This document shows positions 1 through 23,778 of a DNA stretch of 24,001 nt, in pieces. Position 1 is the first letter of the stretch. Each line of letters begins with the position of its first letter. Position numbers and translations under genes: made by a program. The notes under the pieces are model-generated. The model saw only the letters and a program-made list of their open reading frames with translations. It was not told where the DNA came from and did no database searches. This DNA comes from a virus: the IMG/VR virus record IMGVR_UViG_3300007511_000152, positions 1-24,001 of that record; one strand, given 5' to 3'.

Positions 1-101
1 TTATATTCATCATTAGCAATTATTTGTTCTCCAACTTTCACATCACCAATTTCTTTAATTGTACCATCACGTAATTGTATTTTCTCTTTCACATAGATAC
101 A
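1..101 (-). other. N-terminal splicing block of an intein inside gp41 (partial)
   Basis: From Cys374 of the helicase frame (codon 101..99) the 33 residues read CIYVKEKIQLRDGTIKEIGD then VKVGEQIIANDEY. This is the layout of an intein block A: Cys1, a hydrophobic beta strand, a DGT turn, then an I-x-D-V-K-V-G-E/D-x-I hairpin. T4-like helicases instead continue from DTSE with SFGLPA-type sequence, so the downstream extein should begin with Ser, a standard +1 residue. Only the first 33 residues lie in the window. The histidine block, any homing endonuclease domain, the C-terminal His-Asn and the second extein cannot be seen. It may be contiguous or split. Confidence 0.85.
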
Positions 102-1220
102 CTCGCTGGTATCTTCCAACCCCACATCAGTTGACATAAATCCAGCACGATTTAATTGCGTGGCGCTAACGATTGGAATATCCCATTCTACTGCCAATCC
201 TCTCAACTCTTCTGCAATCGCCTTGACTACAAAATAAGACCCTGCACTAATGTTATTTTTATATCTGATTGATGTACAAAGGTTTAAGTAGTCCATGAAT
301 AAAATGTCTGGTATAAACCCCTTCTTAATCTTCAGTTCGTTCATCAACGCACGAAAGTTATTAACAGATGCAGTTGCAGTAGGATACTCCTTTACAATCA
401 ATTTTCCTTTAATTTTATCTCTCAATTTCCCTATCTTTTTTTGATAAGATTCCTTGGGCATATCTTTCAACATATCCATAGGAATATTCATGAGATTTGC
501 ATCAATTCTTTCTGCAATCCTTTCCTCTGCCATTTCCAAAGTTATATAAAGAACATTCTTATTGTCAGATAAACAATTTGCGGCCATATGACACATGAAC
601 AGGGATTTGCCAATTCCAGTTCCAGCTAGCGCAATGTTGAGCGTTTTTCTTGGTAATCCCCCAGCAGTAATTTTATTGAAATATTCTAAATCAAATGGTA
701 TTTTTTCTTCTTTTTTCCGATAGAAGTCAAACCGTTCATCAGAATTATCAAGATAGTCATGACCAATATGAGTATCAAAACTAACGGAAAGAGCGTCACT
801 AAGAATAGTAGGGATAGCGTCTTTGGTATAATCTGATTTTTTAGTTTCGTCAAAAATCCCAATTGAATTGGTGATTGCGTTGTAAAGGGCCTTGTCTTGG
901 CAGAATTTTTCACTTCGTTCCAGTAACCATGCAAGACTTTCTCTGTCTTCTTTTGACCACCTATCTTCTGCATCTTTGAGTAATTCCGTTGTTGTTTGAA
1001 AATGTTCTTCTGTTAGATCATTTCTCTCATTTAATTCAATAATAAGCGCTTCTTTACTAGGAATATTAGAATACTTATTGAAATATTTTCTTATCTCTTG
1101 AAATACTGCTTTATCTGTAAACTGATTGAAGTATTCTTCTTTTATAAATGGTAGAGTTTTTCTTGCATATTCTTCATTATACAACAGGCTTCGCAAAATG
1201 ATATTTTCTAGTCGTTCCAT
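1..1220 (-). CDS. 41: Replicative DNA helicase gp41 (DnaB-like), N-terminal extein, interrupted by an intein and cut by the window edge
   Basis: Hexameric 5'-3' replicative helicase that unwinds the fork with primase and polymerase. Reading from ATG at 1220, the product has a DnaB-type N-terminal region. Walker A is AGTGIGKS (residues 199-206) and Walker B is ILFMDYLNL, with Asp310. The H3/H4 region reads VSATQLNRAGFMSTDVGLED up to DTSE (residue 373), close to T4 gp41. The next residue is Cys374, and the sequence stops resembling a helicase there (see the intein entry). The C-terminal part, about 100 residues in T4 gp41, lies beyond position 1. The start MERLENIILRSLLYNEEYAR matches the short N-terminus of T4 gp41 (475 residues). 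An in-frame ATG at 1256 is a less likely start. The gene overlaps the end of the upstream 122-residue gene by 44 nt, as expected in a coupled operon. Confidence 0.93.
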   Translation of the reverse strand, partial: MERLENIILRSLLYNEEYARKTLPFIKEEYFNQFTDKAVFQEIRKYFNKYSNIPSKEALIIELNERNDLTEEHFQTTTELLKDAEDRWSKEDRESLAWLLERSEKFCQDKALYNAITNSIGIFDETKKSDYTKDAIPTILSDALSVSFDTHIGHDYLDNSDERFDFYRKKEEKIPFDLEYFNKITAGGLPRKTLNIALAGTGIGKSLFMCHMAANCLSDNKNVLYITLEMAEERIAERIDANLMNIPMDMLKDMPKESYQKKIGKLRDKIKGKLIVKEYPTATASVNNFRALMNELKIKKGFIPDILFMDYLNLCTSIRYKNNISAGSYFVVKAIAEELRGLAVEWDIPIVSATQLNRAGFMSTDVGLEDTSECIYVKEKIQLRDGTIKEIGDVKVGEQIIANDEY

Positions 1221-1545
1221 CTTCGCTTTCTTCTTTCCGTTTCTCAAGCTCTTCATTAAGAATGTTTATATAAATTTGTCCTAACATATATTCAAATTCC
1301 TCCCCTTCTTCATCAGTAAATTCTTTATCTTTAAAATCTGGTGGAATCCCAATCATTTCATATTCATATCGTGCCTTAGTTGTTCCATCATCATTATCCT
1401 TGTCTGCCATTTGGAATCTACCAAACGCAACAGTAATTCCTGCAAATGGGCCCAATTCAATAAATATACAACATCTATCCTGTTCTTCTGGGTCAGGTAT
1501 TATTCTATGATAATTCTTTATCTGTTCCGGCGTCAATTCCATCAT
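1177..1545 (-). CDS. Conserved-position hypothetical protein between uvsX and gp41
   Basis: A 122-residue acidic protein starting MMELTPEQIKNYHRIIPDPE. I do not recognise its family. It has a hydrophobic beta-rich middle (CCIFIELGPFAGITVAFGRF), two acidic stretches and a charged C-terminal helix. It occupies the position of gene 40 in T4, between uvsX and 41, but I see no similarity that would make it gp40. The frame is open further upstream to 1743, but that part lies inside uvsX. I chose ATG 1545 because GGAG sits six bases ahead of it and because a promoter (1571..1599) would start transcription near 1564. Its 5' end overlaps the uvsX 3' end by 41 nt and its 3' end overlaps the helicase start. 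Confidence 0.75.
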   Translation of the reverse strand: MMELTPEQIKNYHRIIPDPEEQDRCCIFIELGPFAGITVAFGRFQMADKDNDDGTTKARYEYEMIGIPPDFKDKEFTDEEGEEFEYMLGQIYINILNEELEKRKEESEDGTTRKYHFAKPVV

Positions 1546-2572
1546 ATTCATCTCCATTTGTTCTACCATAAGTATACTCTTTTTTGGTGTAATTGTCAAG
1601 TTGATTGAGAATGTCTTCTGTGAAGTATTTCTCTGGTTCTTTGAGGATTTGTTTTCCGAATAATTTTGAACCATCTGGAAGTTCAAATCTTGTTGATACT
1701 CTTTTAAAGATTCCTGCGGCTTCGGCCATCTCAAGAAGTCCATAATACTTACTCAAACCATCATTATAAGTCAATAGAACATCAACCATTTTGTTCTCTT
1801 TTGTCAATCGTGATTTGTTCATCTTACAATGAATGACATTTCCAATCACTTCTGTACCATCCTTCTCTTTTCGTTTGGACAAGAACACGATTGAAGATGC
1901 GGCATATTGCATTGCAGAGCCACCACCCATAACTTTAGTTGGATACATCGTACCAATCTGGTCATAGACATGATTGGTTACTATAAACGGAACATTCACT
2001 TTCGCAAGTCTTAGAGTGAGAACACGAAATGCACCCTTGATTACTTGAGCCTTTGTCATGTCTTTTTTTCCAGTATCTTCGGAGATATCTGCCATCTCTT
2101 TTGTAGTAGACAACATACCCAAAGAATCCAGACACATCATCAAAGGTGGTCTTTCCGACTCATCTATTTCACCATGTTTTTCTAAAATCTTTACCGCTTG
2201 ATGTCGAAACTCTTCAACTGTTGCAACTGGCATATGATATACTCTTGTAGTATCAATTCCACGTTCCTTGAGCATTTCACTTGTCAATGCAGATTCCGAT
2301 TCAAAGTAAATACAACCACCAGTAGGATTCATGTCAAGAAAATGTTTGACTAATCCTAAAGTGAAAAATGTTTTACCAGTTGCAGACTCTCCAGCAAGTG
2401 CAGTTATCTTGTTTGCAGGGAGTCCACCATATATTGAACCAGATAAAAGTGCATTGAATACATAAGAACCTGTATCAATGTATTGTGAAACATCACCTCC
2501 AAAAATTCCATTATCAACTAAACTTCCATATTCATTACCGGCCGCTTTGGCCAGATCTTTCATATAACTCAT
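1505..2572 (-). CDS. uvsX: UvsX, RecA-like recombinase
   Basis: Strand-exchange protein of T4-type recombination-dependent replication and repair. It coats single-stranded DNA and works with UvsY and gp32. The product is 355 residues (T4 UvsX 391). Walker A is GESATGKT (residues 61-68), the catalytic-glutamate strand is CIYFESESALT (about 87-97), and Walker B is LMMCLDSLGML with Asp149. VPFIVTNHVYDQIG and the glycine-rich KVMGGGSAMQYAASS match the RecA-type ATP-linking segment and L2 region. The C-terminus is acidic. ATG 2572 is preceded by AAAGGA at good spacing. It lies between a 33-residue ORF and the 122-residue gene, and the T4 order uvsX-40-41 is preserved in outline. Confidence 0.96.
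   Translation of the reverse strand: MSYMKDLAKAAGNEYGSLVDNGIFGGDVSQYIDTGSYVFNALLSGSIYGGLPANKITALAGESATGKTFFTLGLVKHFLDMNPTGGCIYFESESALTSEMLKERGIDTTRVYHMPVATVEEFRHQAVKILEKHGEIDESERPPLMMCLDSLGMLSTTKEMADISEDTGKKDMTKAQVIKGAFRVLTLRLAKVNVPFIVTNHVYDQIGTMYPTKVMGGGSAMQYAASSIVFLSKRKEKDGTEVIGNVIHCKMNKSRLTKENKMVDVLLTYNDGLSKYYGLLEMAEAAGIFKRVSTRFELPDGSKLFGKQILKEPEKYFTEDILNQLDNYTKKEYTYGRTNGDEYDGIDAGTDKELS
1571..1599 (-). promoter_or_regulatory. Sigma70-like promoter inside the uvsX 3' end
   Basis: Minus strand TTGACA (1599..1594), 17-bp spacer, TATACT (1576..1571). It lies in the last codons of uvsX, about 25 bp ahead of the 122-residue gene and gp41, and could drive these two genes separately. Confidence 0.6.
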
Positions 2573-2590
2573 AATTTTCCTTTCAATATT

Positions 2591-2692
2591 TCAAAATCCA
2601 TGTGGTTTATCCCAAAAATATATTATTTGACCCATCCAACACATCCAAATTAAATTTTTCCAGAACCATGTTACAAAATATGCTTCTATCAT
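2591..2692 (-). CDS. Tiny aromatic, membrane-type peptide (33 residues)
   Basis: A 33-codon ORF with ATG at 2692 overlapping the stop of the preceding membrane-protein gene as ATGA, behind the ribosome site AAAGGAAAAAA. The product begins MIEAYFVTWFWKNLIWMCWM and contains five Trp and four Phe in 33 residues, consistent with one short membrane-inserted helix. It fills almost all of the gap ahead of uvsX. No family is recognised. The overlap and ribosome site are visible, but whether the peptide is made is inference. Confidence 0.45.
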   Translation of the reverse strand: MIEAYFVTWFWKNLIWMCWMGQIIYFWDKPHGF

Positions 2693-3588
2693 TTTTTTCC
2701 TTTCAGCTTCTTAAATAAATCCCACGTAAGGATTTTAAAATCGTTTCCATCATCATCTGAATATTCTGCTACATTTTCCTTATCTATTACTTCTTTGTCT
2801 GATAAATCCGGCATGACTGTAACAGTCCTAGTCGCCATTTTTCTTTCCCTCCGATAATCCCTCAATGAAATATTTGCAGCAATCACAAGGACAACTGCAA
2901 GAGGGTCAAATACAAAGATGAGAAGTATAATTATCCAACGCACGGCTTCTTCAAGTTGAGTATCACTCACCTCATCATATAACATACTCGCTACATATTT
3001 TATAGGCCCAACCTCTACTTCTGCAAGATTTAATTTCGTTTTCAATTCATACTTCTCATCCGTCAAACCATCAATCTCTCCTTCTAGATTTGAAATTCTC
3101 GTTTTCAATAAATTTGTTTCATTATCCATTGCACCAATCTTGGCCAATCCTTTTGAGATTGCACCAAGTTCAATGTATCTTTGAAGTGCTTTATCTAATG
3201 TATCTAATCTTCCTTCATATCTTTCTATCTGAGATTTTCGTTGAACAACCTTTAATTCTATTCTTTCTATTCGCTCTTCCAAGAGGGCGGTAGGACTTGA
3301 TTGTTGTATATGCGCTCTTGAGAGAAAACCAAATATCCCTAATGATGTAATCAACATCAAAACAACTACGGCTATAATGAAATAGGATTTGATTGTGTTT
3401 GGTGCAGATTTCCAATTTTGAAAAGTCCAACTTGCACATACTAATTTGCCTATTTCAAGGACAATCCCCATTATCATAATTGCAGTTGTAGCTCCTGAAA
3501 ATATCGCTATTAATCCAACAATGGAATACCAAGCCGCTACAGTTGAAATTGCAAGTGCAACAAATAATGTTAATAACCCAAAAAATAT
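2689..3588 (-). CDS. Coiled-coil membrane protein with non-canonical or frameshifted N-terminus
   Basis: The frame from the first ATG (3477) gives 262 residues: a membrane helix (about 32-52, SYFIIAVVVLMLITSLGIFG), a long heptad-rich coiled coil (about 65-150), a helix (about 179-203, WIIILLIFVFDPLAVVLVIA) and a charged tail. The same frame stays open upstream to 3600 and encodes two further hydrophobic segments (GLLTLFVALAISTVAAWYSI, then VGLIAIFSGATTA), so the true protein starts earlier. No ATG, GTG or TTG exists there. The coordinates used assume an ATA start at 3588, just after AAGGAG. The alternative is ATG 3604 with a one-base slip in a run of six T. This arrangement (paired N-terminal helices, coiled coil, C-terminal helix) recalls hypothetical proteins of marine T4-like phages and possibly DUF4407. 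The function is unknown. Confidence 0.75.
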   Translation of the reverse strand: MFFGLLTLFVALAISTVAAWYSIVGLIAIFSGATTAIMIMGIVLEIGKLVCASWTFQNWKSAPNTIKSYFIIAVVVLMLITSLGIFGFLSRAHIQQSSPTALLEERIERIELKVVQRKSQIERYEGRLDTLDKALQRYIELGAISKGLAKIGAMDNETNLLKTRISNLEGEIDGLTDEKYELKTKLNLAEVEVGPIKYVASMLYDEVSDTQLEEAVRWIIILLIFVFDPLAVVLVIAANISLRDYRRERKMATRTVTVMPDLSDKEVIDKENVAEYSDDDGNDFKILTWDLFKKLKGKK

Positions 3589-3604
3589 ATTTCTCCTTCT
3601 TCAT

Positions 3605-3835
3605 CTATGGATGTACATACGATTTAGGTTTTACCCATTTCTTTGATTTGTATGATTTTGATTTTGATTGTAGTTCCTTATTATCACATTGAATAATGCA
3701 CTCATTCCATTTTTTATATGCTTTTAACGGAATACACTCTTCTTCTTTCATTATTTTCCAACATCTATATGATTGATTAGAAACACAAGAAAATATAAAA
3801 AATTGTAATATAACAAAAAGAAAAATATTTCTCAC
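3605..3835 (-). CDS. Small predicted lipoprotein or secreted protein
   Basis: A 76-residue product starting at GTG 3835, which overlaps the stop of the glycosyltransferase gene as GTGA. It begins MRNIFLFVILQFFIFSC, a hydrophobic export signal ending in a lipobox-like IFSC. This is followed by a Cys-containing polar part (four further Cys-type positions in SYRCWKI, EEECIP and ECIIQC) and a Lys/Ser-rich tail. The frame extends upstream to an ATG at 3889, but that would place 18 extra residues inside the glycosyltransferase gene and ahead of the signal. Small lipoproteins in phages can act in lysis or in superinfection exclusion; nothing here decides between these. The next gene begins right after its TAG stop. 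Confidence 0.6.
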   Translation of the reverse strand: MRNIFLFVILQFFIFSCVSNQSYRCWKIMKEEECIPLKAYKKWNECIIQCDNKELQSKSKSYKSKKWVKPKSYVHP

Positions 3836-4641
3836 ATATAAAATTCTTTTATGTTTGACACTTGCGAATCCATATATAATTTTTTCCATTGAATTCTAAC
3901 TTTAGGTTGTCCTTGTTTATGTTCTTCGTTTAAGACAGTTACATAATCCCCAAATCTTTCTTTAACAATATTCATTCCAGTTAAAATAGAATCATCAGTC
4001 CTAAAAGTTGAACAACCACCATCTGACCCAAATTTTGTATCATATAAAAATTCATCAAATTTCCCTATTTTATATCCTCTACTTAAAATTTCTAAATTAA
4101 GAAGAATATCTTCGCATACTATTGTAGTATCATCAACCCATGACCAATCTATTTCTTCGTAAAGTTTTGAAAATACCTCACCATTTAGTGCATATGCATT
4201 ATATTGACCACCTCCTGTATCCCAATATCTTTCTTGTGCTGGGGGCATAAAGGCCAATCGGGGGCCAACCAAAACAACATTTCCATCTAATTTTTCATCA
4301 ATACTTTCAATCATTTCATCATAATCATTATCAATAAAATCCCTCTTAGACATTTCCATATTTGAAACATCACCATAATATTTTACATTTCTTCTTACAA
4401 ATTTAAGGTCATCATCAACTATAAAATATTTAGATATTCCACCATGACGATGTATAATATCTCTTGTCTTCGCTATTCCTATATCATTATTAACCACCAA
4501 ATATTCACAATCATATTCATACAGATGCTCTTCCTTTTTCTGCACAACCATTATTACAAGTTTTTTCCATTTATCGGGAAGTGCATTGTAAGTTATTTGA
4601 TTATTATGTCGGCCTAAAGTAGGTATGTATATTTTATCCAA
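3832..4641 (-). CDS. TAGT-like (TET-associated) GT-A glycosyltransferase
   Basis: 269 residues. The N-terminus KIYIPTLGRHNNQITYNALP, the middle ILxTR-like block (IGIAKTRDIIHRHGG) and the DDD metal/sugar-nucleotide motif in YFIVDDDLKF (Asp76-78) match the TAGT group of phage glycosyltransferases. That family was described next to TET/JBP-type base oxidases and is proposed to glycosylate modified bases in phage DNA. No TET/JBP gene is visible in the window, so the substrate is inference. The start is TTG at 4641, supported by GGAGG six bases upstream and by the conserved motif beginning at residue 3. Both the start codon and its ribosome site lie inside a duplicated copy of the polymerase 3' end (4633..4659). 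The stop overlaps the lipoprotein gene. Confidence 0.78.
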   Translation of the reverse strand: MDKIYIPTLGRHNNQITYNALPDKWKKLVIMVVQKKEEHLYEYDCEYLVVNNDIGIAKTRDIIHRHGGISKYFIVDDDLKFVRRNVKYYGDVSNMEMSKRDFIDNDYDEMIESIDEKLDGNVVLVGPRLAFMPPAQERYWDTGGGQYNAYALNGEVFSKLYEEIDWSWVDDTTIVCEDILLNLEILSRGYKIGKFDEFLYDTKFGSDGGCSTFRTDDSILTGMNIVKERFGDYVTVLNEEHKQGQPKVRIQWKKLYMDSQVSNIKEFYM

Positions 4642-4659
4642 AGAAATCCTCCAACGTTG
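4633..4659. repeat. Direct repeat, downstream copy of the gp43 3' end
   Basis: A 27-bp element identical to 5452..5478 except for one base (22 bp perfect, one mismatch, then GTTG). It encodes the last codons of the endonuclease gene (T-L-E-D-F-F-G-stop). On the same bases it holds the GGAGG and TTG start of the glycosyltransferase gene. The two copies are 819 bp apart, exactly 273 codons, and bracket the GIY-YIG gene. Confidence 0.85.
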
Positions 4660-5449
4660 GTATGCTATTTTTTACTTTAGCCCATCTTACAAGACTGGCC
4701 TTTCTACATATTTCTTTTCGTCTTTCTTTACCACAAGCGAGTGACCTTCTACTTTGTTCTTTACTTTTTTCTTCATCAGGCATATTTGACCATCTTTGAG
4801 AAACCCCCTTTCCTATTGCTATTCTTTGCTCTTCTGTAATAATTCTTTCACTCATGGCTTGTTTGTATTTCTCACTACTGTTAATACCCTCTCCTATTTT
4901 TCGTTTATGTTCTTCTGATAAATTTTTACCTTTGTGAGCATCACTCAACTTCTTTTTGGTTTCTTCTGAGATTATTTTACCTTTTTGCCCTTCACTTATA
5001 TTCTTCTTGTGTTCTTCTGAAAATTTCCTGCCATAATTTGGATGATTCTCACCTTTTTTGACTTCTCTCATCTTCTGTATGGATTCTGATGAATGTTTCG
5101 TACCTGTTCTTGCTTGTCTTATTTTTTCACTTCTTTCTGGATCTTCCATATTTTGATAAGGCCAAATTGCTTTATTCAAATATAAATTAGTATTAATCAC
5201 ATCATTTTCTTGTTGAAATTTTCTCTCTTCTTCAATAGTTTCTTTATCATCTTTAAATTCTCTTACCCAATCAATTTTAAAAGATTCGGCTCCATATTCA
5301 TCTATTAATTTTTTAACATGAGCACTACTTGTAAAATAAATTTTCCAAAAATCTTCTTTTGCACTTACTTTATTAGCAATTCTTGAACCGACATAACATT
5401 TGTTTGTAGGTATATGGGTTATATGATAGATATAGGGTTTTATATTCAT
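4634..5449 (-). CDS. GIY-YIG homing endonuclease with NUMOD3 repeats (Seg-like)
   Basis: 271 residues. The N-terminal GIY-YIG nuclease domain reads YIYHITHIPTNKCYVGSR (about 6-23), followed by the helix HVKKLIDEYGAESFKIDWV and the acidic catalytic region TIEEERKFQQ with a later Asn (YLN). From about 110 to 195 there are four or five NUMOD3-type DNA-binding repeats (SEEHKKNISEGQKGK, SEETKKKLSDAHKGK, SEEHKRKIGEG). This layout is typical of free-standing homing endonucleases such as T4 SegA-SegE. The start ATG 5449 follows the polymerase stop by three bases. The C-terminus, PTLEDFFG, is nearly the same as that of gp43 because the gene lies between two copies of the gp43 3' end. This is most simply explained by insertion of the endonuclease gene behind the polymerase gene. 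Confidence 0.93.
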   Translation of the reverse strand: MNIKPYIYHITHIPTNKCYVGSRIANKVSAKEDFWKIYFTSSAHVKKLIDEYGAESFKIDWVREFKDDKETIEEERKFQQENDVINTNLYLNKAIWPYQNMEDPERSEKIRQARTGTKHSSESIQKMREVKKGENHPNYGRKFSEEHKKNISEGQKGKIISEETKKKLSDAHKGKNLSEEHKRKIGEGINSSEKYKQAMSERIITEEQRIAIGKGVSQRWSNMPDEEKSKEQSRRSLACGKERRKEICRKASLVRWAKVKNSIPTLEDFFG

Positions 5450-5451
5450 AA

Positions 5452-5478
5452 TTTATCCAAAGAAATCCTCCAAAGTTG
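5452..5478. repeat. Direct repeat, original copy at the gp43 3' end
   Basis: Upstream copy of the repeat described at 4633..4659. It carries the last codons and TAA of gp43 (S-T-L-E-D-F-F-G). Similarity continues weakly for about ten bases beyond the stop. Confidence 0.85.
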
Positions 5479-8002
5479 ATATATGTTCTGTTTTCCACCC
5501 AATAGCACCCATTACAGAAGACATTGGTTCAATGAAAGATTTATTGAATTGTAAATCATAATCTATAAATTCTTTCAATCCAAATTCAGGAGGCAAATTA
5601 TTGAGAATTGCAATCACAGAATCACCAACAGGGTTGGGTTTTTTGAGATATGCAAACTTTATTTTCTCACCATCCTTAATTGTTGGATATGAATTGAGTA
5701 AATTTTTGTCCTTCAGGAGTTTATTGTACATCAACGCTCCCTTTACATGAATTGGAGTGCCTTTGCGATACAAATGAGCTGCATCGTGATATTTTTCAAG
5801 ACCACGAACTGACCTTGGAAAGAAGATATCTTCTGCTGCAAGTTTACTGAATTCTTCTCTGAAATCTTCAATATATCCTATAGCATCATCTTCTGTACCA
5901 TTCATAATAATTTTGAAAATACCTTTCATTTTTTCTTTGCACGCTGCAGGAGTAGAAGAACGAACCGATTCAATTCCCATAACCTTGAGTTGTGGTTCTT
6001 CATAACGAACTCCCTCAGAATCATAGACATTCATGATATAACGCTTTTTAGCAGTCCATAATGCTCGATCTGCAATATTCTCACGTTTCATTACCATCTT
6101 CTGGTCGAATGCATTAACATAATCTGCAAGCCCTTGGTAAGATTTTTCTATGATTTTTTCCATTTTTTCAGAACAAACCTTGTCCAAAAAATTAACAATC
6201 TTTGTCTTATCTTCAACATTATCACCAAAAACCTGTTTTACCAAATCATCCATACGAATATAAACAGAATCAGTATCAACTGCAACAACATAATCTTTTT
6301 CCTCTTCTGGTTTAAGTAGATTATTTAAATACTTGTTGATTTCTTTCTCAATCCAACGAATAGATAATTGTCCCGATGTTGTTACGGCTTCTGCAATTCT
6401 TTGGTCAAAAAAACGAAAATATTCATTTCCCATTGCACCAAAAGCAGAATTCAATGTTGTTTTGAGATTATTCTGCATATTATGATATTTGGAAATCAAA
6501 TTGTTCAATTCATGTTTTTTATTTTTATCTTTTTCCTTGGTAAGTTTTTTCTTCGTTTCAATCATCAATTTCTTATACTTCACACGGTCATTATAAATCT
6601 GTTCCATCATTTCTGGAAGAAACCCTTGTTTGTCCGTTTTATAAAATTCATTATTTGGAGTATAAGTTACATTATATTTCTTCAATGCATTTAATGATTG
6701 AGATTGGTCAAGAAGACCATCCACTTTGGCTCGTGAATTCTTAATTTCCTGTAATTCTGGTGGGAGTTCATCAGTAATCAATGTTTCTGGACTTAAATTA
6801 TATTGCATTATGAGATGAGGATAGAGTGAATTCAAATCGAAATTTACTACCCATTCATGAGCTCCAAGTATTGGTTCTTTTACAAATGCACCTTCAAAGT
6901 TGGATGATTTACTAGCGTGTGTTTTAGGTGGAATAATAATATTTTTACTCAACAAATGATTATAAATCAACGTATCCCACATTCTAACTTGACCAAATGT
7001 ATTCCTATAATTTACTTTACAGAGATATGCTAATGAAACAATCATTTCAAGAAGTTTCAATTTTCCTTCAAGTCGTTCTACTAACTCCACATCTTTGATA
7101 TTGTATTCAATGAACTTTTGATAATCATTCTTGTATAGAAGATGCAATGTTCCTTGTTCAGAATAATCAAGTTTACTTTCTCCAAGTTCAACATTTGCAA
7201 TATGGTCTAATCTATATGATTCTTGATTATAATAGATAAATTTACGATACATTGAAAGATAGTCAAGAGTATCCACGCCATAAATTTCAAACGCTTGGAG
7301 TTCTTTTCCACCCATTCCAAACATTGCATATTGACGAACCTTCTTCCAAGGTGAAAGTAAACGATATGGATTCTTCTTTTCATCAAATAATCGTTTTGCA
7401 CGATTCACTAAATATGGTATATCAAATGTTTCTACATTCCATCCTGTAACAATATCTGGTGATTCTTTATCCCACATCTTGAAGAATTTTTCAAGAAGTT
7501 CTCGCTCACTTGAACATTTGAGATAATATACATCTTTTCGGTCATGTTGAAATTCTTCACAACCAAAAACATAACAATTTTTTCCAATTTTAAAGGTTAT
7601 TGCAGTAACAGTTTCACTTGCATCTTCTACATTTGGAAATCCATTATCTGAACTTACCTCAATGTCAATATATGCAACTTTAATAAAAGAAAAATCATAA
7701 TCAATATGTTTTTCGGGAAAGTGTTCTGCTATGAAAGAATATTCAAACTTATCATTACCATAGATATTGAAATTATCAATCTCTTTATATTTGGCAATGA
7801 ATTCCCGACACTCCCTCATCGTACCCGGCCGAATTTCTCCAACTGGGTCGCCTTCTAGAGTTTGGAATTTTGTTTCTTCTTTGGTAGGAATGTAAAGAGT
7901 GGGATGATACTCTATACGGTCTTTGAATCTTTTTCCGTCTTTAGAGACACCCCGAAATAGTATACTGTTTCCAATAGTTGAGACATTCGTATAAAAACTC
8001 AT
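5453..8002 (-). CDS. 43: DNA polymerase gp43 (family B)
   Basis: Replicative polymerase with 3'-5' proofreading, 849 residues (T4 gp43 898). Exo I is YIDIE (Asp113, Glu115). Exo II is VTGWNVETFDIPY (about 185-197). Exo III is YNIKDVELVERL (about 300-311). Polymerase motif A is FDLNSLYPHLI (388-398), motif B is KTTLNSAFGAMGN (514-526) and motif C is VAVDTDSVYI (573-582). All catalytic residues are present, so it should be active. The last residues, STLEDFFG, resemble the C-terminal clamp-binding tail of T4 and RB69 polymerases. The ATG has no clear ribosome site and overlaps the stop of a 55-codon ORF as ATGA, suggesting translational coupling. A consensus promoter lies about 60 bp upstream. 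Confidence 0.98.
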   Translation of the reverse strand: MSFYTNVSTIGNSILFRGVSKDGKRFKDRIEYHPTLYIPTKEETKFQTLEGDPVGEIRPGTMRECREFIAKYKEIDNFNIYGNDKFEYSFIAEHFPEKHIDYDFSFIKVAYIDIEVSSDNGFPNVEDASETVTAITFKIGKNCYVFGCEEFQHDRKDVYYLKCSSERELLEKFFKMWDKESPDIVTGWNVETFDIPYLVNRAKRLFDEKKNPYRLLSPWKKVRQYAMFGMGGKELQAFEIYGVDTLDYLSMYRKFIYYNQESYRLDHIANVELGESKLDYSEQGTLHLLYKNDYQKFIEYNIKDVELVERLEGKLKLLEMIVSLAYLCKVNYRNTFGQVRMWDTLIYNHLLSKNIIIPPKTHASKSSNFEGAFVKEPILGAHEWVVNFDLNSLYPHLIMQYNLSPETLITDELPPELQEIKNSRAKVDGLLDQSQSLNALKKYNVTYTPNNEFYKTDKQGFLPEMMEQIYNDRVKYKKLMIETKKKLTKEKDKNKKHELNNLISKYHNMQNNLKTTLNSAFGAMGNEYFRFFDQRIAEAVTTSGQLSIRWIEKEINKYLNNLLKPEEEKDYVVAVDTDSVYIRMDDLVKQVFGDNVEDKTKIVNFLDKVCSEKMEKIIEKSYQGLADYVNAFDQKMVMKRENIADRALWTAKKRYIMNVYDSEGVRYEEPQLKVMGIESVRSSTPAACKEKMKGIFKIIMNGTEDDAIGYIEDFREEFSKLAAEDIFFPRSVRGLEKYHDAAHLYRKGTPIHVKGALMYNKLLKDKNLLNSYPTIKDGEKIKFAYLKKPNPVGDSVIAILNNLPPEFGLKEFIDYDLQFNKSFIEPMSSVMGAIGWKTEHISTLEDFFG

Positions 8003-9735: not shown

Positions 9736-10953
9736 TTAACTTTTTTTTGTAAAAAGATATAATCTTTCACTATTCCCAAATTCTTTCTGTTTTCCAACAC
9801 CTAATGAAGTTTGAGTTTTCCATTGAATTTGTTTAACTCCAATATCAGTAAAATATTTCTTTGCAATATTTGAAAGATCATCACCGATAAAAATTGTTTC
9901 ATTTTTACTCCTATATTGTGGAACAATAACAAAACTAAAAATACCACCTTTTTCAAGAACACTATGACATATTTTCACAGTCTCTTCCCAATATCCTTTT
10001 AACCAATCTTGATAATTAGGAAAAGATTCAATTGATTGTTCTCCACCTTCATATACTTCTAAATCAAAATATGGTGGAGAAAAAAATACTGAATCAAAAT
10101 ATTCTTTATATGTTTCAATAAAATTGTGTCGTTTGTCTATTTGTTCAGAAGGACAACAATAAAAATCATATTTTAAATTATTACTATTAAATGGATTACT
10201 GGTATGCTCTTCACATAACTGTTTGCATTTATCCACTACATGAGGAATTACATCTATACCCACATAATGTTTAACATTAGCACTAAATGAACCTATAAGA
10301 TAAGATGCCCAACCCAAACATGGTGTTAATAATTTTTCTGACTTTAAAATATTACTAATAATATATGCAGCTGTATTGGGATTGAATATTGAAGCTTTAC
10401 TTGATGTGCCTCTAAGTATACCAAAAAGACGAGAATTATGATGTTTATCTCTTACTACAAATTTTTGAGAACTAGGAGTTTTCCATATTCTAAAAATGAA
10501 AGGTTGTTCTACACATTTTTTTAAAACTTCATGGGTTGTGGGAAGTCCCATTGAATTTGTCGTATAAGTTGAATATACATCTTCCCAAAATAGATTTTTG
10601 ACAATTCTCCCATACTCAGTTTTTATAGAACCATCTATAATTCCATTCATTTCACATGGTACAATTCCAGAAATATGTTGTCTCGCTGTTTGTTTTATGT
10701 GCATATCATACCAATTTTCTAAAAACTTTTCTGGAGCTTCTACAAATACTTGATAACATCGTTTACAAAAATCTTCTATTAATTCATCTGTCCAAAGTTC
10801 ACTTTCGTTAGCCCATTCAACAAATAACTTAGCCTCTTCATAAGTTTCTCCATACTTAGCTAATAATTTTAATTTGGATTTATATTCCAAATATTCTATT
10901 TTTTCTGGTATATTAAATGATTTTAAAAAATCATTATACGAAGTGTAAATCAT
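9736..10953 (-). CDS. DNA methyltransferase-like protein (SPPY motif)
   Basis: 405 residues from ATG 10953. The C-terminal half is an amino-methyltransferase fold. An AdoMet-binding region reads LTPCLGWASYLIGSF, then HYVGIDVIPHVVDKC (about 210-245). The catalytic motif IV is FFSPPYFDLE (SPPY at about 292-295), and a later strand is GGIFSFVIV. SPPY is common in N4-cytosine enzymes, but PPY-type motifs alone do not fix the target base. The N-terminal 150 residues are helical and not recognised. The gene overlaps the HNH nuclease gene by 20 nt. This pairing suggests a nuclease-methylase cassette, though a stand-alone phage methylase protecting its DNA is equally possible. Confidence 0.85.
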   Translation of the reverse strand: MIYTSYNDFLKSFNIPEKIEYLEYKSKLKLLAKYGETYEEAKLFVEWANESELWTDELIEDFCKRCYQVFVEAPEKFLENWYDMHIKQTARQHISGIVPCEMNGIIDGSIKTEYGRIVKNLFWEDVYSTYTTNSMGLPTTHEVLKKCVEQPFIFRIWKTPSSQKFVVRDKHHNSRLFGILRGTSSKASIFNPNTAAYIISNILKSEKLLTPCLGWASYLIGSFSANVKHYVGIDVIPHVVDKCKQLCEEHTSNPFNSNNLKYDFYCCPSEQIDKRHNFIETYKEYFDSVFFSPPYFDLEVYEGGEQSIESFPNYQDWLKGYWEETVKICHSVLEKGGIFSFVIVPQYRSKNETIFIGDDLSNIAKKYFTDIGVKQIQWKTQTSLGVGKQKEFGNSERLYLFTKKS

Positions 10954-11830
10954 TTGGTCTTTTTGCAAGAGCTTCAGCAACCCGTTTTGTTAATATTTCC
11001 CATTTCCAATCAGCATTCTTTCGTTTTGAAAATGTATAGTCATGAACTAAGTCTTCATTAACTAAAAACCAATCAATAAAATCATAATTAAATGTAGGGT
11101 TATTCAATAACGACAAAGAATATCCAGAAATTTTAGATAATATTATAAGTTTTGATTCGGTATAAAATTCACCTGGCCATCTTTCTTTTTTTGAACGATT
11201 ACATGGTGTACATAATGGTATCATATTATTTAAAGTATTAGCATAAAAATTATGTAATGGTAAAATATGATCTAATTCAAGTTTTTCAGTCGATCCACAA
11301 TTAAAACATTCTTCTCCATGTTGTTCATAACATAGTATATCTAATTCATCATTTAATAAAATTGCTTCATTAAGATGTTTTTCCCTAAAAAGTCTCAATA
11401 CAGTTTCAAAATATCTACTACTAGCAGCCTTCTTCAATTCTGCTGGAGTTCGTAAATAATTCCTATATCTTGTCATGTATTTACATGTTCCATTCCTCCC
11501 TTCGTGTTCTGTAATCCATGAAAGAGGATGAATAGCATTTAATCCTAAAAATTCACACCAATCACAATGTACCATATCTTCATCATAATCATTGAAAAGA
11601 TTTGCAGAAGGACGTAAATTTATTTTCTTTTTATATCCAAATTCACCAAGTAGTTTCCCACTACTATGCGGCCCACGCCCACCTTCATGTACATAACCAC
11701 GTTTTTCTATAAAAATATTGTTAATTTTCTCGAACACATTTTTAAGTACAGAACCATTGTATATAAAATTACCACCTGAATCTCTCTCAGACAATATTTT
11801 CAAATCATTTTCAGTCAACACAGTTTTCAT
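10934..11830 (-). CDS. HNH endonuclease, overlapping a methyltransferase gene
   Basis: 298 residues. The HNH/zinc core is at about 175-214: CFNC, LELDHILPLHNF (Asp187-His188), NNMIPLCTPCNRSKK (Cys207, Cys210, Asn211). A second CxxC (HCDWC, about 89-92) suggests another metal site. The N- and C-terminal parts are not recognised. Start ATG 11830 is chosen for AAAGGAATTGATT; a GTG at 11848 is the other choice. It has its own consensus promoter (11862..11890) and overlaps the methyltransferase downstream. Homing endonucleases are usually single genes, so the tight pairing with a methyltransferase points instead, or as well, to a restriction-like enzyme. Confidence 0.87.
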   Translation of the reverse strand: MKTVLTENDLKILSERDSGGNFIYNGSVLKNVFEKINNIFIEKRGYVHEGGRGPHSSGKLLGEFGYKKKINLRPSANLFNDYDEDMVHCDWCEFLGLNAIHPLSWITEHEGRNGTCKYMTRYRNYLRTPAELKKAASSRYFETVLRLFREKHLNEAILLNDELDILCYEQHGEECFNCGSTEKLELDHILPLHNFYANTLNNMIPLCTPCNRSKKERWPGEFYTESKLIILSKISGYSLSLLNNPTFNYDFIDWFLVNEDLVHDYTFSKRKNADWKWEILTKRVAEALAKRPNDLHFV

Positions 11831-11861
11831 AATCAATTCCTTTTTCACTCTTTCAACTTAC

Positions 11862-23702: not shown

Positions 23703-23778
23703 TGGAGCTGGTGATAGGAATCGAACCTACGACATTCTGATTACAAATCAGACGCTCTGCCATCTGAGCTACACCAGC
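23703..23778 (-). tRNA. tRNA-Thr (anticodon TGT), CCA encoded
   Basis: All arms fold. The acceptor stem is GCTGGTG/CACCAGC. The D stem is GCTC/GAGC. The anticodon stem is TCTGA/TCAGA with loop TTTGTAA (anticodon TGT, reading ACA). The T stem is GTAGG/CCTAT with loop TTCGATT. The discriminator T is followed by an encoded CCA at 23705..23703. It probably supports reading of ACA codons in this AT-rich genome. Confidence 0.97.

Follow-up and report, generated by a model that had tools for sequence, protein, structure and literature searches.

The window analysed here is the whole of virus record IMGVR_UViG_3300007511_000152 (24,001 bases), which stops at position 1 within a gene for the gp41 replicative helicase. 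We conclude, at a probability of roughly 90%, that this end of the record holds the first third of the N-terminal half (N-half) of a mobile split intein, whose insertion point lies between the Glu and the Ser of the helicase DTSES motif, a site written below as DTSE^S. Judging from its relatives, the window's own copy would be split as well.

A helicase gene interrupted at DTSE^S

The interrupted frame is open for 418 residues, continues off the contig edge and matches DnaB_C (E-value 5e-20, profile positions 5-181 of 255); it is identified by its sequence as a T4-type gp41/DnaB-family replicative helicase, truncated at that edge, with an ATG at position 1220 as a possible alternative start. 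Normal helicase sequence, including Walker A, Walker B and SATQLNRAGFMSTDVGLEDTSE, gives way abruptly to CIYVKEKIQLRDGTIKEIGDVKVGEQIIANDEY in the terminal 101 bases. The original prediction, made from the window's letters alone, had described just this change, from a helicase normal through Walker A, Walker B and DTSE to a Cys-initiated intein N-terminus, and had taken the Ser beside the break for the +1 residue. In the window's own gene the +1 Ser of SFGLPATAD falls past the contig end. Both the insertion point and the Ser are nevertheless fixed, because DTSE-SFGLPATAD is uninterrupted in about 70 close helicase relatives, gathered by a scan of public viral contigs.

One relative, L005 (IMGVR 3300009374_000273), has the same N-terminal intein residues as the window together with the rest of the intein. 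Its N-half comprises 88 intein codons and then a stop, and its C-terminal half (C-half), 91 residues in a different frame and with its own start, reads MKNDKLKESC...DISVSGDNLFYCNNILTKN, with SFGLPATADFMF after it; the half ends in LTKN and passes directly into SFGLPATAD. Between the halves is a 54-residue frame that we regard as an endonuclease remnant, because it aligns with the endonuclease of other loci at the C-terminal end of that protein. The original prediction had called the intein possibly split, to be recognised by a stop within about 120 codons, a second piece elsewhere and a C-extein beginning SFGLPA or similar. All of these occur in L005, so the split is observed in relatives, and for the window, where the stop and C-half would lie off the contig, it is probable by analogy. 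The C-terminal His-Asn that was also anticipated is there only in part, the Asn being preceded by Lys.

Searches with alignments of the two halves yielded 37 distinct loci with both halves, which bear out the prediction of an intein in the gp41 helicase. At every one of them the intein is split at DTSE^S into separate frames, each joined to its own part of the extein, with N-halves of 88-96 and C-halves of 87-105 residues. The C-half start is out of frame relative to the N-half in 27 of the 37, and most C-half starts follow a purine-rich, Shine-Dalgarno-like stretch (AGGA- or GGAG-like). A free-standing, intact-looking endonuclease gene lies between the halves at 25 loci, a remnant at 2 and nothing at 10. 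One might suppose that the window's copy is a contiguous, cis-splicing intein and that only its relatives are split, since the window ends short of the stop-codon position and since the halves in L125, L096 and L251 share one frame with a single stop codon between them. We give this very little weight: no complete locus is contiguous, and a relative that shares the window's intein DNA over the entire overlap is itself split.

Recent transfer of the intein

Recent horizontal transfer of the intein is evident from nucleotide comparison of the window with L005, because 99 of 99 intein nucleotides are identical as against 74.1% of 987 nucleotides of helicase extein (codon alignment). Among codons for identical residues, 33/33 are the same in the intein and 134/249 in the extein (Fisher p 1e-8). 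Counted without gaps, identity between the two reaches 95% over the last 60 bases ahead of the junction, compared with 79% across 300 bases, a rise expected from repair that copies a short flank. A second pair, L235 and L246, has 267/267 intein bases identical and helicases that are 65.7% identical. The window's intein DNA equals that of L005 and L003 across all 101 bases and that of L006 across 92. The contig ends of the window (at position 1), L003, L006 and L070 fall within 10 bases of one another, 92-101 bases into the intein; this shared end point is probably an assembly break where viral lineages have identical intein DNA.

Distribution of the family

In a one-genome-per-species bacterial and archaeal collection, tblastn confirmed no member of the family. 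In a phage collection only Shigella phage ESh36 (ON528746.1, locus L087), a cultured Tequatrovirus, has an element of the DTSE^S family; other cultured-phage matches were inteins in other genes, for example terminase and UvsX. The ESh36 element, a helicase-borne split intein whose endonuclease is EDxHD-like, is unannotated: the phage record simply lists a hypothetical protein and two genes for a primase/helicase at this locus. Between ESh36 and intein-free ESh31 the helicase flanks show 97.6% identity, and ESh36 is longer by about 1.55 kb.

Fold and splicing residues

A combined alignment of N- and C-halves was built from loci with both halves in one frame. Each of the 24 aligned members has a match to Pfam Intein_splicing (best E 1.2e-7), and a profile search of solved structures placed gp41-1 (PDB 6qaz) first, with E 1e-26, answering the comparison with gp41-1 that the original prediction had proposed. 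An AlphaFold model of L125, whose halves share a frame and were read through the one stop, has a mean predicted local distance difference test score (pLDDT) of 91.2 and superposes on gp41-1 with Z 21.7 and a root-mean-square deviation of 1.7 over 124 residues. Every C-half begins with about 45 extra residues absent from gp41-1, modelled in L125 as a helical hairpin (helices 96-109 and 117-139).

Cys1 and the block-B His are present in all aligned N-halves, Cys1 also in the window's own intein start, and all C-halves end in Asn, followed by Ser at +1. These features bear on whether the gene is simply broken by an endonuclease gene, its helicase parts assembling without splicing, as in T4-type split genes such as Aeh1 nrdA and phage 25 gene 43 (PMC2988022). 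The endonuclease genes between the helicase halves and the separate start of each half would fit such an arrangement, but conserved intein blocks persist on both halves with these residues invariant, the halves together model as a HINT domain, and the 10 loci that have no endonuclease retain both intein halves. We regard splicing-free assembly as extremely improbable.

Asn cyclisation is usually assisted by a penultimate His and a block-F His. The family has neither: the penultimate residue is Lys in 40/40 unique C-halves from this site, and the block-F position, His in gp41-1, is Asn in 39 of the 40 and Gln in ESh36. Such losses, with the decayed endonuclease of L005, could mean that the intein has decayed and no longer splices. 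This is very unlikely in our judgement, as strict conservation of LTKN and the remainder of the C-half holds even among diverged loci, and the helicase flanks are intact; moreover, the penultimate residue differs in about 5% of functional inteins, and neither His is needed in all inteins (PMC4031507). His40 and His41 of the N-half are invariant in the 24 aligned members, and might, as a guess, stand in for the missing histidines.

The endonuclease between the halves

In an alignment of 20 endonucleases, from which the ESh36 row was left out, E255, D272, E283 and H290 are invariant. The model (pLDDT 83.7, predicted template modelling score 0.42) best matches Vsr (1cw0) and the homing endonuclease I-Bth0305I (3r3p), at a modest Z of 9.0 each and within the C-terminal 130 residues; sequence similarity to Vsr is marginal (E 0.15), and the N-terminal 220 or so residues gave no match. 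The predicted Vsr-like fold and these invariant residues point to a putative nuclease of the EDxHD (Vsr-like) family, whose catalytic fold carries E, D, H and D. This family has been described as phage homing endonucleases (PMC3943268).

A model for splicing and homing

Several points weigh against a mobile split intein in the window. It holds just 33 intein residues, which alone match Pfam Hint weakly (E 0.046). The C-half and the endonuclease were sought elsewhere in the 24 kb and neither was found, so the homing endonuclease that the original prediction had looked for is borne out in the relatives and not here. To judge by the alignments, the family lacks both of the histidines that usually serve Asn cyclisation, and splicing chemistry is no given. 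Finally, the endonuclease is cut to 54 residues in L005, so the intein in the window may have lost the ability to move by itself.

If the split intein nonetheless works as its relatives suggest, two proteins are most likely made, one joining the N-terminal part of the helicase to an N-intein of about 88 residues and the other, from its own start codon, joining a C-intein of about 90 residues to the C-terminal part. The intein halves would associate into a HINT fold like that of gp41-1 and splice in trans, through a Cys1 thioester, attack by Ser+1 and Asn cyclisation, to give an intact helicase. In most relatives an EDxHD endonuclease gene lies between the halves; its product presumably cleaves, at DTSE^S, helicase genes that lack the intein, and repair of the cut gene would copy the whole insert and spread the element.

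Neighbouring sites and three-piece helicases

Upstream of DTSE^S, no more than about 20 codons away, are two further split-intein sites, one after TTR/TNR (occupied in L127, L128 and L095) and one after SGY/SGF (L129, L130 and L267-L275). The latter is the gp41-1 site, whose native junction is SSS (PMC7090010). DTSE^S lies about 12 residues further on than SGY^SSS, and the window helicase runs uninterrupted through AGFMSTDV, so that the suspicion of a site separate from that of gp41-1 has proved correct, the gp41-1 site itself being found in relatives. GIY-YIG-like genes, read by eye, lie between the SGY-site halves in L129, L130 and L251.

Two split inteins interrupt one helicase in three contigs, L093, L251 and L095 (Table 1), and a targeted scan found no doubly split helicase beyond these. 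The middle polypeptide would have 12-15 helicase residues, with a C-intein in front of them and an N-intein behind. Assembly error is unlikely, because the three contigs come from three metagenomes. Haloarchaeal MCM inteins likewise pack several sites into one helicase, sometimes with two occupied, and two neighbouring inteins with active endonucleases impede each other's homing there (PMC10643990); the present case differs in that both neighbours are split, which makes the middle piece a polypeptide of its own.

Relation to known systems

The family resembles gp41-1 (PDB 6qaz, 6riz) in host protein, split organisation, HINT fold, N-half of about 88 residues, +1 Ser and an endonuclease gene between the halves. 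It differs in its longer C-half (about 37 residues in gp41-1), in ending LTKN rather than LTHN, in the Asn or Gln at block F, and in an EDxHD endonuclease in place of the GIY-YIG one at the gp41-1 site (L130, L251). Dassa et al. in 2009 reportedly described 'fractured genes', conserved phage genes interrupted by a split intein whose halves flank a free-standing, often Vsr-like endonuclease gene. The published C-halves of gp41-1 to gp41-9 reportedly end in LTHN. The DTSE^S loci share this layout of broken gene, split intein and intervening endonuclease, and the kind is thus already known: a fractured gene with a split intein and an EDxHD endonuclease. What marks the DTSE^S loci as a variant is their site, the altered residues and the longer C-half; in a literature comparison that lay outside the founding fractured-gene paper, we found no published description of it.

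What emerges is a widespread separate set of split inteins that occupies a third site in the helicase, differs in its catalytic residues, has an extra segment and includes one member in a cultured T4-like phage. We suggest tentatively, and at somewhat less than even odds, that DTSE^S inteins form a distinct class in which Asn is cyclised without either usual His, that the C-half hairpin confers partner specificity, and that in some phages two orthogonal trans-splicing reactions, one on each side of the short middle extein, join three polypeptides into one helicase. The family permits a direct test of what substitutes for the two histidines, and in the three-piece helicases two split inteins occur naturally as neighbours; gp41-1 and gp41-8, from the same helicase, rank with the fastest tools now used for protein ligation (PMC7090010).

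Table 1. Positions of features in the window and in related loci.
Sequence	Feature	Position	Strand	Basis or remark
Window	Helicase frame	3-1256	-	open at contig edge
Window	N-extein: gp41/DnaB-family replicative helicase, N-terminal 385 codons	102..1256	-	frame, DnaB_C, motifs
Window	Walker A AGTGIGKS	603-626	-	motif in helicase frame
Window	Walker B ILFMDY	288-305	-	motif in helicase frame
Window	Insertion site DTSE^	102..113	-	empty-site relatives DTSE-SFGLPATAD; L005 C-half end TKN^SFGLPATAD
Window	N-terminal part of intein, cut by contig end	1..101	-	Cys1 codon 99-101; 33 codons + 2 bases
Window	PF20691-matching gene	3832-4641	-	TET-associated glycosyltransferase
Window	SegE-like endonuclease gene	4634-5449	-	GIY-YIG/NUMOD3
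Window	DNA polymerase gene	5453-8002	-	
Window	Methyltransferase-like frame	9736-10980		
Window	HNH endonuclease gene	10934-11848	-	PF01844
Window	tRNA-Thr gene	23703-23778	-	anticodon tgt
L087 (ESh36)	DTSE^S locus	2436-5416		
L093	SGY site + DTSE site	1401-5479		middle extein 12 residues
L251	SGY site + DTSE site	127-3252		middle extein 12 residues
L095	TNR site + DTSE site	4224-6252		middle extein 15 residues

Other genes in the window

The SegE-like endonuclease gene lies directly behind the DNA polymerase gene and is shared at 100% by just two other contigs. Both products end in TLEDFFG, encoded by an identical 21-bp stretch, TTGGAGGATTTCTTTGGATAA; the polymerase tail, a putative clamp-binding peptide, was apparently duplicated when the endonuclease gene inserted. 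The PF20691 match suggests that the phage DNA may carry glycosylated modified bases. The HNH endonuclease gene overlaps the methyltransferase-like frame that follows it, and the tRNA-Thr gene lies near the far contig end.
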